Assembly: GCA_028877205.1 (NCBI GenBank)
Contig: JAPPHY010000022.1
Span: 1 to 42,469, forward strand
DNA length: 42,469 bases
Direction of reading: 5' to 3'
Source of the DNA: Chloroflexota bacterium
GTDB taxonomy: Bacteria; Chloroflexota; Dehalococcoidia; Lucifugimonadales; UBA2985
Shown: positions 7,221-29,473 of the stretch, in pieces
How positions within the stretch are numbered: the first letter of the stretch is position 1
Layout: each line of letters starts with the position of its first letter
Position numbers and translations under genes: made by a program
Notes under the pieces: model-generated
What the model was told of the DNA's origin: nothing
Databases searched by the model: none
The model's input: only the letters and a program-made list of their open reading frames with translations

Positions 7221-8597
7221 TCACTCCCCGCGCGCCCTGGACGAAATCGCCAGTGCGGCGGCATATCCGCTGCGCACCGCGCCCTCCATGGTGCCGGGCC
7301 AGTCGGTGTTCACCCACTCGCCAGCGAGGAAAAGGTTTGAGATGGGCGTCGTGACGGGCAGCCGGAAGGAAGATGCGCCTGGAACCGACCGGAATGTAGC
7401 CCTGGGCTGCTTCACCACCACCAGCCGCTCCACCCGGGCGTCCCGCGCTTGCGGGAACACCCGCGCCATCTCTTCCAGGAACATCTCGCCTATGCGCTGC
7501 CTGGGCAGGTCCGCATACTCCCATGCCCCACTGAGGGAGATGCACACGTACTGCCCGGTCGAATCGTCGTCGCCCTGCATCCGCGTCTTGTTGAACACCC
7601 ACTGGAGAGGGCTGTCCACGAACCCCGCGAACTCGTCGTCCATCACGGGCCGGTCGTACCAGACGTGAACGTTGACGATGGGCGAGTACGACAGGTGATC
7701 GGCGAGCGAGAAGAAGCCGTCCGCGGCTACGGCCGGCGGCAGCACGGCCCCCAGATCGTGCGAGGCCAGAGCCAGGACGTACCAGTCTCCGTGGACGTCA
7801 CCGCGGGACGTGCGGACGCCGCAGACCCTGTCGCCCTCGATGATCAACTCACGTACGCCGGTGCCCAGCATTACCTCGCCGCCGCGTGACGACAGGTAGT
7901 CGATCGCGCCGTCCGAGACCAGCTCGGAGAGGCCCACCCTGGCGTAGCCCATACTGCCGCTCTCCCTGGACTGTAGCACTCCCTCCTTGAACACCTTCAG
8001 ACCCATGTTCGCGCTCACCTGCGACGCGTCGTCGTTCAGCGTGGGGAGCACCACCAGATTCCAGAAACGGTCAATGGCCTCGTCCGACTGTCCGTGTCGC
8101 TTCAGCCAATCGGCGAAGGTCTCGTACTCGAGGCTTGACTCGTCGCGCCGGCGATCGGCGAGGTGGATGCGCAGTCCGCCGTATAGAACGCGCAGCTTGT
8201 CCATCCACGAGAGGTGGGGATAGGCAAGCAGCGAGGGCAGCAGGTGAAACGGGGCGGGCAGCGCGGCGCCCCGTAGTACGCCCCTGCGGCCTGTGCGGTC
8301 GAGGACGGGGACGAACAGAGATTCCTGCAGGTGCGTATTGCGATGCGCTTGCAGGGAGCCCAGGAGGTTGATGTAGAAGGTGCAGCAGCCCAGGAAAACG
8401 TGCTGGCCGTTGTCCATCTGGAGGCCGGTCTCCGGTTCCGGGAAGGAGAACGCCCGGCCGCCCAGGAAGGAGCGCTTCTCCATGAGCACCACCGGGTGGC
8501 CGCGGTCGGCCAGGTAGCAGGCGGAGGCGATGCCCGCCAGCCCACCCCCTATAACAACTACCTTTCCCTGACCCTCGACACTATCGCGTTCAACCAT
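7221..8597 (-). CDS. hpnE: Hydroxysqualene dehydroxylase HpnE (FAD-dependent)
   Basis: This 458-residue flavoprotein of the amine oxidase/phytoene desaturase fold is predicted to reduce hydroxysqualene to squalene, the last step of the HpnCDE route. Near the N-terminus is the dinucleotide-binding motif VVVIGGGLAGIASA followed by LMEKRSFLGGRAFS; near the C-terminus is the FAD-binding stretch LAGEWVNTDWPGTMEGAVRS. DNGQHVFLGCC matches the HpnE-type substrate region. The start is ATG at 8597, inside the last 40 bases of hpnD; the frame stays open further upstream without a family-like sequence. The position directly after HpnC- and HpnD-like genes supports HpnE over other desaturases. Confidence 0.88.
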   Translation of the reverse strand: MVERDSVEGQGKVVVIGGGLAGIASACYLADRGHPVVLMEKRSFLGGRAFSFPEPETGLQMDNGQHVFLGCCTFYINLLGSLQAHRNTHLQESLFVPVLDRTGRRGVLRGAALPAPFHLLPSLLAYPHLSWMDKLRVLYGGLRIHLADRRRDESSLEYETFADWLKRHGQSDEAIDRFWNLVVLPTLNDDASQVSANMGLKVFKEGVLQSRESGSMGYARVGLSELVSDGAIDYLSSRGGEVMLGTGVRELIIEGDRVCGVRTSRGDVHGDWYVLALASHDLGAVLPPAVAADGFFSLADHLSYSPIVNVHVWYDRPVMDDEFAGFVDSPLQWVFNKTRMQGDDDSTGQYVCISLSGAWEYADLPRQRIGEMFLEEMARVFPQARDARVERLVVVKQPRATFRSVPGASSFRLPVTTPISNLFLAGEWVNTDWPGTMEGAVRSGYAAALAISSRARGE

Positions 8598-9430
8598 AGC
8601 TTTGCCATCAGCCCCAGCTTCTCGTGAGTGCCAAGGCCAATCCTCTTGCCGAATACGTTGTAGTCCGCCGCCTCTATGCGGTCCAGCAGGCGGCTGTACA
8701 GGCCGTGCAGCACCGCCGGGCATGCCCTGGAGCGCGGCGACAGCAGCGGCAGGAGCCGCTTGCCGCGCTGGAAGTAGTCGCGGGCGCGCTCAACCTGGAA
8801 TCGCATCATATCGCGAAAGCCGTCACTAGTCCTTCGCTGCAGGATTTCATCCTCGGAGCAGCCGAAGCGCTCCAGATCCTCGCTCGGGAGGTACAGCCTA
8901 TCCCGTTCCAGGTCTTCCTCCACGTCCCGCAGGATGTTGGTGAGCTGCATGGCGATGCCCAGGTCTACGGCGTGCTGCCTGGCATTGGGGTCGGTGTAGC
9001 CGAATATCTCGATGCAGACGAGGCCCACGGCGGAAGCTACCCGGTAGCAGTACTCACTCAGCTCCTCGAAGGTGGAGTATCGGGACTTGGTGATGTCCAT
9101 CTCCACGCCGTTGATCACCTCATCCAGATGATCACGCGGAATGCCGAAGCTGTTGATGGTGTCGTGCAGGGCGAGGTAGACCTGGCCCTCCGGCTTGCCC
9201 GCGCACGTCATTTCGAGAGCCTCGCGTTGCTCCTCGACGAGCCTCAGCTTGACGTCAGGGTCGTCCGAATCGTCCGTGGCATCGTCGCAGAGGCGGCAGA
9301 AGGCGTAGGTGGCGTAGATTGCCCTGCGCTTGGCAGCGGGCAGGGTGATGAAGGCGTAGTAGAAGTTCTTTGCCCTCTCTTTGGTCAGCCTTCGGCAGTA
9401 TTCGTAGGCCAGGTCAAGGTCGGTGGTCAC
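8558..9430 (-). CDS. hpnD: Presqualene diphosphate synthase HpnD
   Basis: This 290-residue enzyme of the squalene/phytoene synthase family is predicted to condense two farnesyl diphosphates to presqualene diphosphate. The first Mg-binding motif is DDATD (residues 49-53), in the context YAFCRLCDD. The second is DVEED (169-173), within NILRDVEEDLERDRLYLP. Flanking Tyr and Arg residues of the family are present. The start is GTG at 9430 with GGAG six bases upstream. The 3' end overlaps hpnE by 40 bases. HpnD rather than phytoene synthase is preferred because HpnC and HpnE partners flank it. Phytoene synthase is the main alternative. Confidence 0.85.
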   Translation of the reverse strand: MTTDLDLAYEYCRRLTKERAKNFYYAFITLPAAKRRAIYATYAFCRLCDDATDDSDDPDVKLRLVEEQREALEMTCAGKPEGQVYLALHDTINSFGIPRDHLDEVINGVEMDITKSRYSTFEELSEYCYRVASAVGLVCIEIFGYTDPNARQHAVDLGIAMQLTNILRDVEEDLERDRLYLPSEDLERFGCSEDEILQRRTSDGFRDMMRFQVERARDYFQRGKRLLPLLSPRSRACPAVLHGLYSRLLDRIEAADYNVFGKRIGLGTHEKLGLMAKLWLNAIVSRVRER

Positions 9431-9465
9431 CGGTGTCTCCGTATCCCCATTCTCCGCTATGGCGC

Positions 9466-10353
9466 TCAGATCCTCCCGCGCAGCTTCATACGAATCGCCG
9501 TGCCGGCTGCAAGCCGCGTCCGGGCGAGCTTGGACAGCGTGGGTCGGCGGCTGAGCACGTCGTAGTCCTGGCGCTCGATGGCGTTCAGGATGTGCAGGCC
9601 GCCCTCTGTGAAGAGCGCGATGTCCAGCCGCACGATGCCCTCAACAGCGTCGACGAGGGCGGCGCCCTCCCGGAAGAGGCCGCGGGCGCGCTCCACCTCG
9701 AACCGCATCAGCTCGCGAAAGGCACTGTCAGCCACGCCTTCGTGAAGCTGCTTCTCCGTGCAGCCGAACTGCACCATGTCCTCCTGAGGAATGTATATAC
9801 GACCCATCTCCAGGTCGCGCCGGACGTCCTGCCAGAAGTTGGCGAGCTGCAGTGCGGTGCAGGTGGCGTCGGACAGGCGCTGCCTCTCCGCGTCCCAATA
9901 GCCGAACAGGTACAGGAACAGGCGCCCAACGGGGTTGGCGGAGTGGTCGCAGTAGAAGAGCAGGTCGTCGTAGGTGGGATGGCGCTGTGTCCTCTGGTCG
10001 ATGCGGTTGGCCTCGACGAGCTTGAGGAATGGCTCCATCGGTATGCTGAAGCGCTGGATCGTATCGGCGAGGGCGACGGCGATGGGATGCGTCGGCATCC
10101 CGTCGTAGCAGGCTCGCAGCTCTTCCTCCCACCTGTCGAGCAGGGCGAGCCGGTCTCCCTGCGCCTCGTCCCCGAGGTCATCCACGAAGCGGCAGAAGGC
10201 GTAGACGGCGTAGACGTGGGGGCGCTTGTCGCGGGGCAGGAACCACGAGGCGACGGTGAAGTTCTCGTAGTGGGAGCGGGCGAGGGTGCGGCAGTAGTCG
10301 TATGCCTCCTCCGCGCTCCACCGGGTGCGGGAGCTCGCTGTAAGCCCGTCCAT
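9466..10353 (-). CDS. hpnC: Squalene synthase-family protein HpnC
   Basis: This 295-residue protein is the second squalene/phytoene synthase homologue of the cluster and is assigned as HpnC, which converts presqualene diphosphate to hydroxysqualene. The first aspartate motif is DDLGDE (residues 58-63, after YAFCRFV) and the second contains Asp176 and Asp180 (NFWQDVRRDLEMGRIYIP). The sequence EEAYDYCRTLARSHYENFTVASWFLP is typical of HpnC N-termini. The ATG at 10353 is chosen because GGAGG lies five bases before it; an in-frame ATG at 10416 has no ribosome site. A 35-base gap separates it from hpnD and 106 bases separate it from the polyprenyl synthetase gene. Confidence 0.87.
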   Translation of the reverse strand: MDGLTASSRTRWSAEEAYDYCRTLARSHYENFTVASWFLPRDKRPHVYAVYAFCRFVDDLGDEAQGDRLALLDRWEEELRACYDGMPTHPIAVALADTIQRFSIPMEPFLKLVEANRIDQRTQRHPTYDDLLFYCDHSANPVGRLFLYLFGYWDAERQRLSDATCTALQLANFWQDVRRDLEMGRIYIPQEDMVQFGCTEKQLHEGVADSAFRELMRFEVERARGLFREGAALVDAVEGIVRLDIALFTEGGLHILNAIERQDYDVLSRRPTLSKLARTRLAAGTAIRMKLRGRI

Positions 10354-10459
10354 GCTGGCCTCCGGTGCCTGGGCTGTGCGCCTGCCGTGCGAATGCCGGC
10401 GGCGTGCGTGGCTCATATCTCAGGCTACCACAAGCCGCAGGCGCCTTCAAGGGCGGCGC

Positions 10460-11509
10460 CTATCGGTCGCGGGTGAGCAGGAAGTGCACCAGCTCTCGCA
10501 GCTCCTCGCGGCAGCCCTCCGACGTCCTCACACCGCTCAGCGCATCCTCCACGAGTGCTGCCTGTCGCTCGGCCAGGCTCTGCATGTACGCGGGCGCGCC
10601 CAGGCTCTCCAGCAGCTCTATCAGCGACGCCACGTCGGAGTCGTCCACGTGCTCCTTGGCGTAGACGGACTGGATGTGCTCCCGCTCCACGCCTCCGCCG
10701 TGCTCCAGCCCGTAGACCACGGGCAGCGAGTTCTTCTTGCTGCGCAGGTCGTTGCCTGCGGGCTTGCCGGTCTCGTCCTCGCGGCCCCAGATGCCAAGGT
10801 AGTCGTCGCGGATCTGGAACACCAGCCCGATGTGGCTGCCGCACCGGGCCATCGCCGCGACGGTGTCAGCGTCGCCTCCTCCGGCCAGCGCGCCCATGTA
10901 CATGGAGCAACGGATGAGCGCGCCCGTCTTCAGCCCTATCATCCGCAGGTAGGAGGCGGTGTCCACGTCCGTCCGCCCTTCGAAGTCGATGTCCAGGTAC
11001 TGGCCCTCGATCATCTCCAGGTAGGCCTCGCTGAGTGCGCGGCTGCATGCCGCCGCCACGGAGCTTTCGTTGTGCGCCTCCATGAGCCGTCGCAGGCCCG
11101 AGTCGGCGAGCATACGCATAGCGTTGCCGGCCTGCACGGCCTGTGGCTTGCCGTAGACTGCCCACACCGTCGGGCGGTGGTGACGCTGCAGGTCGCCGTC
11201 CTGGATGTCGTCGTGGATGAGCGAGAAGTTGTGGACAAGCTCGATTGCGGCTGCTGCGGGGAGCGCCTGCTCCGGCGCGCCGCCCACGGCCTCGCAGGCG
11301 AACATGCACAGCGCCGGTCGGAGCCGCTTGCCCTGGCTGAGCGACGATGGCCGTCCCGCCTCGTCGACGCGGCCCATGTGGTAGCGCAGCATCACGCCGA
11401 GGTCGGGGTCTTCCGGGCAGAGCAACTCGTCGATGGCGGTCTCTACGCCGTCGAGGTAACTGCGGAGTATGGCCGGTGTGTCGTCGGGGTGGCTGCGGTC
11501 GGTCGTCAC
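10460..11509 (-). CDS. Polyprenyl (geranylgeranyl/farnesyl) diphosphate synthase
   Basis: This is a 349-residue trans-isoprenyl diphosphate synthase. The chain-start motif is GKRLRP (60-65), the first Asp-rich motif is DDIQD (100-104, without the two-residue insert of type II FPP synthases) and the second is DDYLG (235-239), where Gly replaces the final Asp, a variant found in a subset of bacterial enzymes. An aromatic residue (Phe95) precedes the first motif, which favours short products. It probably supplies C15 (or C20) diphosphate to the HpnCD enzymes encoded downstream. The start is GTG at 11509: GAAGG lies seven bases upstream, and the strong promoter at 11605-11634 lies between it and the upstream in-frame ATG at 11650, ruling that ATG out. 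Confidence 0.88.
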   Translation of the reverse strand: MTTDRSHPDDTPAILRSYLDGVETAIDELLCPEDPDLGVMLRYHMGRVDEAGRPSSLSQGKRLRPALCMFACEAVGGAPEQALPAAAAIELVHNFSLIHDDIQDGDLQRHHRPTVWAVYGKPQAVQAGNAMRMLADSGLRRLMEAHNESSVAAACSRALSEAYLEMIEGQYLDIDFEGRTDVDTASYLRMIGLKTGALIRCSMYMGALAGGGDADTVAAMARCGSHIGLVFQIRDDYLGIWGREDETGKPAGNDLRSKKNSLPVVYGLEHGGGVEREHIQSVYAKEHVDDSDVASLIELLESLGAPAYMQSLAERQAALVEDALSGVRTSEGCREELRELVHFLLTRDR

Positions 11510-11906
11510 GGGGTCGCCTTCGGTAGTCCAGGGCCGCGAGCTGCGCTCGTGGCGAGGGTCGTATTGGAGCGTCGTCAGGCCGGAGCCTGGCCCAGTCTGC
11601 GGCAATGCTAGCAGAGGCGGATTTGGGGTGTCAATGACGGGCTGCTGCAACCCACCCGCTCATGTCCTTCGACACGCTCAGGATGAGCGGGTGAAGATGG
11701 CCCGCTCGTGGTGAGCCGAGAGTTTACCCTGAGCGCAGTCGAAGGGAACCATACGGGCGGCCATATGAAGGACAGCGGCCGTCCGCTCATGTCCTTCGAC
11801 GAGCTCAGGATGAACGGACTAGGATGGCCCGCTGAGTGATGGACTCCTGCTCCCTGCTTTCGCAGGGACAAGCTCCGCAGGAGTGACGGCTTTGGTAGGC
11901 GCCCGG
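11510..11906. repeat. Gap with palindromic repeats between the isoprenoid operon and sbcD-like gene
   Basis: The right two thirds of this 397-base gap carry interspersed repeats. There is a 41-base palindrome with arms CACCCGCTCAT/ATGAGCGGGTG (11653-11693), a related one with GTCCGCTCAT and ATGAACGGAC (11781-11819), and a nested structure with outer arms ACTCCTGC/GCAGGAGT (11843-11884) around TCCCTGC/GCAGGGA (11851-11868). TTCGACACGCTCA and TTCGACGAGCTCA form the loops of the first two. The left third is the leader and promoter of the polyprenyl synthetase gene. No gene is seen. Confidence 0.8.
11605..11634 (-). promoter_or_regulatory. Promoter of the squalene/isoprenoid operon
   Basis: On the minus strand, TTGACA (11634-11629), an 18-base spacer and TAGCAT (11610-11605) form a good sigma70-type promoter. 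Transcription should start near 11598, giving a leader of about 90 bases before the GTG at 11509. Confidence 0.6.
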
Positions 11907-27169: not shown

Positions 27170-27838
27170 GTGCCTCCAGGCAACAGGATCCTGCTCCTCA
27201 CCCCTCCGGAAGAGAGGTCCACCTTCAGCACGCTGGAAGGCGACGGCCTCATCGTCTCCTATTCGGATGACCTCCAGGTGATAGAGACCATCCCGCTGGA
27301 GGAAGCTCCCAACCTACTGTTGCTGGACCTCTCGCTTGTGTCGCCCGGCTCGCTGGGAGGCTTTGCCCGACGGTGCAAGGAGGCCGACCTGCCAATTCTG
27401 GCCCTCGTGCCCAGGGAGAGCCAGTCCACGGTCGATCCACGCCTGGAGGTCGAGGACTTCGTGTTCTTTCCGTTCACTGACGCGGAGCTGTGGGCAAGGG
27501 TCCAGAGGGCTCTGTGGCGGAACGGCAGGGGGGACAGCGGACAGATCATCCACGTTGGAGACCTGGTCATAGACCAGGAGCGGTACGAGGTTAGCGTGGG
27601 CGGCCGGAAGGTGCTCCTCACCTTCAAGGAGTACCAGCTTCTGCGCCTGCTGGCGTCAAACCCCGGGCGAGTCTTCACCCGCGAGACACTCCTCAACCGC
27701 GTGTGGCAGTACGACTACTTCGGCGGCACGCGCACCGTGGACGTGCACATCCGCAGGCTGAGGAGCAAGGTGGAGGACGCCACGCACCTGTTCATCGAGA
27801 CCGTGCGCAACGTGGGATACCGCTTCAGGGTTGCGTAG
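27170..27838 (+). CDS. GlnR-like OmpR-family regulator with degenerate receiver domain
   Basis: This 222-residue protein has an N-terminal receiver-like domain (1-115) and a C-terminal OmpR/PhoB winged helix (125-222; FKEYQLLRLLASNPGRVFTRETLLNRVW, given in parts as FKEYQLLRLLAS and RVFTRETLLNRVW, then GTRTVDVHIRRLRSK and VRNVGYRFRV). The receiver keeps Asp53 (LLLLDLSL) but lacks the N-terminal acidic pair (ILLLTPPEE instead of a DD motif), the Thr/Ser after strand 4 and the Lys of strand 5 (FFPF instead of TKPF). It should therefore not be phosphorylated in the normal way, like actinobacterial GlnR. No kinase gene is adjacent. The start is GTG at 27170 without a clear ribosome site. Its position next to glnA and the periodic repeats between them suggest a nitrogen regulator. 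Confidence 0.8.
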   Translation: MPPGNRILLLTPPEERSTFSTLEGDGLIVSYSDDLQVIETIPLEEAPNLLLLDLSLVSPGSLGGFARRCKEADLPILALVPRESQSTVDPRLEVEDFVFFPFTDAELWARVQRALWRNGRGDSGQIIHVGDLVIDQERYEVSVGGRKVLLTFKEYQLLRLLASNPGRVFTRETLLNRVWQYDYFGGTRTVDVHIRRLRSKVEDATHLFIETVRNVGYRFRVA

Positions 27839-27859
27839 AGACCGGCAGTAGACTGAGTG

Positions 27860-27897
27860 TTTACACAGCCGTAACATCATGGCAATATAGGCGCAAC
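27860..27897 (+). promoter_or_regulatory. Candidate GlnR/PhoB-type operator of glnA (four direct repeats, 11-bp period)
   Basis: Half-sites TTTAC (27860), GTAAC (27871), GCAAT (27882) and GCAAC (27893) are each separated by exactly six bases, giving an 11-bp period on one face of the helix. A weaker TAGAC at 27849 continues the phase upstream. The last repeat ends ten bases before the -10 box, the spacing typical of activators of the OmpR/PhoB fold. Confidence 0.6.
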
Positions 27898-27907
27898 GGA
27901 TTCGGTA

Positions 27908-27913
27908 TATACT
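27908..27913 (+). promoter_or_regulatory. -10 box of the glnA promoter
   Basis: TATACT is a good -10 hexamer. The -35 position (27885-27890, ATATAG) has no match to TTGACA and lies within the repeat array, which points to activator-dependent transcription. Transcription would start near 27920, giving a leader of about 95 bases. Confidence 0.55.
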
Positions 27914-28015
27914 GCGTCCAGTACATCGGCTACCAGCGTAGAGCCCGGCTAGGATCGCCGGCGCTCGCGCGGATTCGCTGCACAAACTGGCATTTGATTC
28001 GAGAGGAGGATACGC

Positions 28016-29473
28016 ATGACGACGCCAGGAGAGTTTCCGGGTTTCACCAGCCCTGACGAGGTTATTGCCTTCTGCAGAGACAGGGGCATACAGATGGTGG
28101 ACCTGAAGTTCACGGACGTGCCGGGCACGTTCCAGCACGTGACGATTCCATTGGGAGAGCTCAAGCCGGACGTGTTCGTTGAGGGCACGGGCTTCGACGG
28201 CTCCAGCATCCGCGGCTTCCAGCAGATCCAGGAGAGCGACATGCTCCTGGTGCCGGACGCCACCACGGGCACCATCGACCCGTTCTTCACCGTCCCCACG
28301 CTCAGCCTGATCTGCAAGGTCAAGGACCCGGAGTCGGACGCCGGTTACTCCCGGGACCCGCGCTTCATCGCACAGAAGGCTGAGGCCTTCCTGCAGTCCT
28401 CGGGACTGGGGGACGTCAGCTACTGGGGCCCGGAGCCGGAGTTCTTCATCTTCGACTCCGCGCGATTCGACCAGACCATCAACAGCGGCTACTACTACAT
28501 CGGCTCGGAAGAGGGCGTCTGGAACTCCGGGAGCGAGTGGAATGAGGACGGGAGCCCCAACCTTGCGTACAAGCCCAAGCTCAAGGGGGGTTACTTCCCG
28601 GCGCCTCCATTCGACACCTTCCAGGACATGCGCTCCGAGATGTGCCTGCTGATGGCGGGGTTCGGCATAACGGTGGAGAAGCACCACCACGAGGTCGCCA
28701 CGGCCGGCCAGGGCGAGATTGACATGGTCTTCGACTCCCTGACCAGCATGGCGGACATGGTGATGGCGTACAAGTACGTTGTGAAGAACGTGGCGCGGGC
28801 CCATGGCAAGGCCGCCACCTTCATGCCCAAGCCTCTCTTCGGCGACAACGGCACGGGTATGCACACCCACCAGAGCATCTGGAAGGGCGGCGAGAACCTC
28901 TTCTCCGACCCGAACGGCTATGCCGGTTTCAGCCAGATGGGGCTCCACTATATCGGAGGCCTGCTGAAGCACGCGCCTGCGCTGCTCGCATTCGCGGCTC
29001 CCGGCACCAACTCATACCGACGGCTGGTGCCCGGGTACGAGGCCCCGGTGAACCTGGCGTACTCCCAGCGGAACCGCAGCGCCTGCTGCCGCATCCCCAT
29101 GTACTTCGGACACGCGCACGCCAAGCGGGTGGAGTTCCGCTGCCCGGACCCCACGTGCAACCCCTACCTGGCGTTCGCGGCCATGCTCATGGCGGGCATC
29201 GACGGCGTACTGAACCAGATCGACCCCGGATCGCCGCTGGACCAGAACCTGTACGACCTGAGCCCGGAGGAGGCGGCGAAGGTGCAGCAGGTGCCCGGCA
29301 GCCTGGGCGAGTCCCTGGACGCGCTGGAGCAGGACCACGAGTTCCTGCTGCGCGGCGACGTGTTCACGCCGGACCTGATCGAGACCTGGCTGGACTTCAA
29401 GCGCACCAACGAGCTGGACGCCGTGCGGCTGCGGCCACACCCGTACGAGTTCTTCCTCTACTTCGAGGGCTAG
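28016..29473 (+). CDS. glnA: Glutamine synthetase, type I
   Basis: This 485-residue GSI makes glutamine from glutamate and ammonia with ATP. Conserved motifs are [14 protein letters not shown] (Asp50-type loop), [27 protein letters not shown], the ATP-site [15 protein letters not shown] and the glutamate-site [21 protein letters not shown]. The adenylylation loop [13 protein letters not shown] with its Tyr is present, as in the GSI-beta subgroup, so post-translational control is possible. AGGAGG lies six bases before the ATG. A strong rho-independent terminator follows the stop by 25 bases, so glnA is probably transcribed alone from the operator-bearing promoter upstream. Confidence 0.97.

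Follow-up and report, generated by a model that had tools for sequence, protein, structure and literature searches.

The GlnR of Bacillus and Streptococcus is a repressor with a fold unrelated to that of the regulator described below, and regulators of the PhoB/PhoP type bind 11-bp tandem half-sites in place of the -35, as in the arrays reported here. The closest described system is the GlnR of Actinobacteria. The array consensus that we present agrees with the published GlnR box of M. smegmatis, t/gTAAC-n6-Gc/aAAC; in Amycolatopsis, the A at the fourth position of the half-site was found to be irreplaceable (PMC10704036). In the unphosphorylated dimer of Amycolatopsis GlnR, Arg52 together with Thr9 holds Asp50, and the signal sensed by the unphosphorylated receiver is called unknown in a review (PMC10704036). 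Our literature search, with partial coverage of subscription journals, returned nothing relevant on GlnR in Chloroflexota, SAR202 bacteria or dehalococcoids, and in the literature searched we found no description of the control of nitrogen assimilation in Chloroflexota, including the abundant marine SAR202. We studied a glnA locus on a 42,469-nucleotide stretch of DNA (the window, which designates that whole stretch) from a member of the Chloroflexota (Dehalococcoidia/SAR202-like), an organism lying, as an earlier sequence-only reading had inferred for its GlnR-type activator of glnA, outside Actinobacteria. This reading is well supported by the sequences; by inference, the regulator would bind the promoter, activate it and do so unphosphorylated.

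A four-site operator at the glnA promoter

The sequence-only reading had described, between the regulator gene and glnA (Table 1), four half-sites at an exact 11-bp period ending ten bases before the hexamer TATACT. All four starts, the ten-base gap and TATACT were found where expected, and the promoter has no -35: the hexamers at 16-, 17- and 18-bp spacing (TATAGG, ATATAG and AATATA) match TTGACA at one or two positions. Scored against GTAAC, this operator is the top four-site 11-bp array on both strands of the 42-kb window, a score of at least 16 being reached at period 11 only when periods 8 to 15 were scanned. None of 200 dinucleotide shuffles of the 1 kb upstream of glnA equalled its score, and the array is not due to chance. 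Elsewhere in the window, reading by eye suggested a minus-strand cluster like those of squalene or carotenoid synthesis, with genes for an FAD oxidoreductase and a polyprenyl synthetase and two genes of the squalene/phytoene synthase kind.

Table 1. Coordinates of the features discussed; positions without a locus label are those of the window.
Feature	Position	Strand	Basis or remark
glnR-like gene, 222-aa OmpR-fold orphan regulator	27170..27838	+	GTG start; Pfam, phmmer, tree, alignment, AlphaFold
Half-site 1, TTTAC	27860..27864	+	read from sequence, array scoring
Half-site 2, GTAAC	27871..27875	+	read from sequence, array scoring
Half-site 3, GCAAT	27882..27886	+	read from sequence, array scoring
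Half-site 4, GCAAC	27893..27897	+	read from sequence, array scoring
-10 hexamer TATACT	27908..27913	+	10 bp past half-site 4, without -35
Whole operator-promoter	27861..27913	+	match of profile built from other genomes alone, E=0.0028
Probable ribosome-binding site, GAGAGGAGG	28001..28009	+	read from sequence
glnA, presumed target, coding for a type I glutamine synthetase	28016..29473	+	TIGR00653, E=2.9e-193
Genes resembling squalene or carotenoid synthesis	7221-11650	-	by eye
Histidine-kinase-like gene	G000:C1:38717 (L192:1-1980)		HATPase_c 93 bits
Stand-alone OmpR-type domain	G000:C11:23400-23708 (L183:1492-2367)	-	
Microprotein loci in relatives	L216:1501-1593; L217-L225, L227, L232, L243, L245		

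Kinship and receiver pocket of the regulator

The DNA-binding part of the regulator is a winged helix covering approximately residues 125-222. Trans_reg_C (98 bits) was the sole Pfam match along its 222 residues, with no match to Response_reg. An AlphaFold model, computed with an alignment of relatives, still has strands and helices alternating as in a receiver (mean pLDDT 86, pTM 0.54), the low pTM probably reflecting an uncertain arrangement of the two domains. Fold comparison of the model gave Z 14.6 over 209 residues for 8hih_N and Z 16.7 over 96 for 8hig_A, GlnR chains that were tied with other OmpR-family chains. Since fold alone does not single out GlnR, the assignment rests on sequence.

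At this level, the claimed GlnR type was upheld. In phmmer searches against solved structures, 8hig and 8hih rank before RegX3 and MtrA as the top two; their titles name GlnR of Saccharopolyspora erythraea (DNA-binding domain) and an M. tuberculosis transcription initiation complex with GlnR. In its DNA-binding domain the regulator shares ~53% identity with GlnR, and GGTRTVDVH.RRLR is common to both. Named relatives come from Dehalococcoidia, SAR202 and unclassified Chloroflexi, and the next matches beyond Chloroflexota are nearly all actinobacterial GlnR-type proteins. A maximum-likelihood tree of 97 rows contains a 100/99 branch with all the canonical regulators (RegX3, MtrA, five from the genome of the window and others of its relatives) on one side and, opposite them, the Chloroflexota proteins together with all actinobacterial GlnRs and two proteins from Omnitrophota, this latter side being a clade if the root lies among the canonical regulators. 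The tree leaves the branching order within the GlnR side unsettled, so that it is compatible both with vertical descent and with an old transfer. In the two Omnitrophota proteins (L092 and L116), the DNA-binding domain is GlnR-like and the receiver is degenerate, keeping the Asp and having Leu at the Lys position.

Alignment to canonical regulators likewise confirmed that this OmpR-fold protein retains Asp53 in a pocket that is otherwise lost. All 23 canonical regulators aligned possess the acidic pair, the Asp, the Thr/Ser and the Lys; from this set the regulator has the Asp alone, with Thr11 and Pro at the acidic pair, Val at the Thr/Ser position and Phe at the Lys position. Among 42 Chloroflexota proteins, Asp is present in 36, Lys in four, and the first acid and the Thr/Ser in none; four of these relatives carry Glu at the Asp position. 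The pocket of 24 actinobacterial GlnR-type rows is alike (Asp in 20/24, Lys in 0/24), and Thr is favoured at the first acid position in both groups. They differ two residues after the Asp, where 17 of the 24 actinobacterial rows have Arg and the Chloroflexota proteins have Ser or other residues, rarely Arg. The regulator of the window thus possesses the Thr and the Asp of the Thr9-Asp50-Arg52 network, with Ser55 instead of the Arg. As Arg52 is not conserved in Chloroflexota, a dimer there would have to be held otherwise, or else the network would be dispensable. Both the kinship of the regulator and its broken pocket are established by these comparisons.

The regulator had also been expected to be an orphan, and when the HATPase_c domains of its genome were located, no kinase gene was found beside it. 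This genome encodes six canonical receivers, seven OmpR-type DNA-binding domains and nine HATPase_c-type ATPase domains; by position, four kinases are neighbours of OmpR-type regulators and a further kinase is fused to its regulator. The OmpR-type regulators with an intact receiver have an adjoining or fused kinase. One histidine-kinase-like gene was found with no adjacent response regulator (Table 1). It is the sole obvious candidate for a model in which ours is an ordinary two-component regulator, phosphorylated on Asp53 by a kinase encoded elsewhere. This unpaired kinase and the retention of Asp53, an Asp shared with 36 of 42 relatives, favour such a model; we nevertheless consider it very unlikely, given that the first acid and the Thr/Ser have disappeared from all 42 relatives and the Lys from 38 of them while the 23 canonical proteins keep everything, that Glu replaces the Asp in four relatives and that no kinase gene adjoins the regulator. 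A stand-alone OmpR-type domain of this genome (Table 1) was considered as an NnaR-like partner and rejected: it showed no receiver match (its N-terminal part was unsearched) and its neighbours, by eye, are not nitrogen genes but look like glycine dehydrogenase and trehalose-phosphate synthase.

Tandem arrays in relatives and across the class

Conservation of the half-sites in relatives, the check put forward with the sequence-only reading, gave a positive result: tandem 11-bp arrays precede glnA, other glutamine synthetase genes and amtB. For the glnA upstream regions of the window and of further genera and families within its order (25 in total), the mean best four-site score was 15.6 of 20 at period 11, compared with 12.1-12.5 at periods 8-10 and 12-14, and ~16 of the 25 regions score above all 200 of their own shuffles. 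As glnA does not adjoin the regulator gene in most genomes, this conservation is not carried by gene adjacency. Within the genome of the window, exact three-site matches occur before amtB-glnB only, in an array with the four half-sites GTAAC, GTAAC, GTAAC and GGAAC. The pattern found 30 matches (per-genome tallies) in this genome and 59 relatives, against one for a reversed-pattern control, and the loci read lie mostly ahead of amtB, glnA or another glutamine synthetase gene. The array consensus is GTAAC-n6-GTAAC-n6-GTAAC-n6-GAAAC, with the fourth-position A of the half-site invariant or nearly so. No array was detected upstream of the regulator gene that would suggest autoregulation (best four-site score 13), nor at the second amtB of the same genome (contig C14; best score 11.5). 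In one relative (G044), where the regulator's top match is no better than a canonical regulator (5.9e-27), the exact pattern occurs four times; none of these matches was seen at nitrogen genes and some lie within palindromic GTAACGCGTTAC contexts. They probably represent another factor or chance.

We also built a profile of 55 columns from 21 arrays of other genomes, leaving out the two arrays of the genome of the window. Over this 2.0-Mb genome it returned a single match at E<=10, the glnA operator-promoter. It misses at that threshold the amtB array that the exact pattern finds, and its counts are therefore lower bounds. Across 197 genomes of the class, it detected arrays in at least 56. Among the 30 profile loci listed, of which at least two (G024 and G056) belonged to the training set, 29 stand ahead of amtB, glnB or a glutamine synthetase gene; the thirtieth (L253) lies near a contig end, and a fuller stretch (L279) reads glnR, array, amtB, array, amtB. 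In a relative with a single-contig 1.5-Mb assembly (L277:1-5001, reverse strand; G072), glnR is followed by array-like sequence, amtB, glnB, an array and a glutamine synthetase gene. The existence of the arrays and their targets are in this way established.

At E<=1e-36, 149 of the 197 class genomes sampled carry a GlnR-like gene, nearly always as a single copy. Its co-occurrence with strong arrays is statistically weak (14/44 vs 1/15, p=0.08; 48/149 vs 8/48 in the class genomes, p=0.04), in part because both detection cut-offs are strict. This weakness is compatible with the arrays being real but bound by a different, PhoP-like protein of the OmpR/PhoB family, the gene adjacent to glnA not being their regulator. 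The 11-bp tandem repeat is general to that family. At glnA and amtB of Streptomyces, the sites of PhoP overlap those of GlnR (PMC10704036). Against this, the half-site fits the GlnR consensus, the DNA-binding domain has the identity to GlnR and the common motif described above, and in 30 genomes (rows counted) the GlnR-like gene is followed on its own strand by an array within ~2.5 kb, which makes binding by another protein improbable in our opinion.

The spacing between array and promoter is fixed. Of 27 arrays, 23 have a hexamer with A as its second and T as its sixth base that starts exactly 10 bases past the last half-site, and 14 have TAnnnT there, compared with at most five and three, respectively, at other offsets. 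The operator is therefore at the -35 position and at a fixed distance from the -10, which is the geometry of an activator replacing the -35. That geometry, along with the lack of a recognisable -35 in the window promoter, leaves little room for the regulator acting at the arrays as a repressor or dual regulator, even if actinobacterial GlnR represses some genes, as reported for ald in Amycolatopsis (PMC4140684).

Many relatives encode a peptide of 28-33 residues of the form MGIEAILGGVAFAGLFGLWVVLPSRIRKNRE, placed after the array and ahead of glnA, another glutamine synthetase gene or amtB (Table 1). This single-span membrane microprotein, roughly ME.(I/L)L.G(V/I)AF..LF..WVVLPS(K/R), has a good match in ~17 of 60 genomes and is absent from that of the window (best E 0.78). 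An array scoring at least 16.5 lies upstream, at 78-134 nt, of 14 of the 16 microproteins with a recovered frame. Differences at codon positions 1, 2 and 3 number 737, 526 and 1218, the third position being the most variable, a pattern as in a translated gene. Pfam and NCBIfam searches of the microprotein gave no match.

Proposed mechanism and comparison with known systems

We favour, with a probability of roughly 0.87, a GlnR-type regulator of Chloroflexota that, unphosphorylated, would bind the arrays and switch on glnA and amtB-glnB under nitrogen scarcity. The regulator would form a dimer through its receiver, and the dimers would bind tandem 5-bp GTAAC-like half-sites, one every 11 bp, along a single face of the DNA. 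The four half-sites would hold two dimers, which would stand in for the absent -35 and recruit RNA polymerase to the -10 ten bases downstream. Binding of the arrays by this protein, activation through that binding, independence of phosphorylation and nitrogen status as the signal are our inferences.

If so, Chloroflexota nitrogen assimilation would gain a regulator with its operator code and its small regulon, all directly testable, and GlnR would no longer be specific to one phylum; GlnR-type nitrogen control is probably more widespread than previously thought. The many sequences that have diverged in the receiver and not in the DNA-binding domain should be useful for understanding how an unphosphorylated receiver senses nitrogen. 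More tentatively, and with some doubt on our part, the GlnR regulon may be no invention of Actinobacteria but an old nitrogen-control circuit that they share with most Chloroflexota of the class Dehalococcoidia, where it would have recruited a co-induced membrane protein of ~30 residues acting on glutamine synthetase or AmtB.

With the MerR-family GlnR of Bacillus and Streptococcus, the system has in common the name and the target glnA alone. It shares the fold with canonical regulators of the PhoB/PhoP type, which, by contrast, have a full phosphorylation pocket, a kinase partner and other half-sites, and are separated from it by the 100/99 branch. The likeness to actinobacterial GlnR (S. coelicolor, A. 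mediterranei, S. erythraea 8hig/8hml, M. tuberculosis 8hih) extends to the OmpR fold, the orphan condition, the Asp kept in a degenerate receiver, a DNA-binding domain ~53% identical, the arrays of 5+6+5 half-sites and the targets glnA and amtB-glnB. It departs from actinobacterial GlnR in its Chloroflexota host, in a poorly conserved receiver, in the Asp-centred dimer network, whose Arg52 is not conserved here (Ser55) and is found in 17/24 even of the actinobacterial rows, and in the arrays of Chloroflexota relatives that also precede a ~30-aa membrane microprotein.
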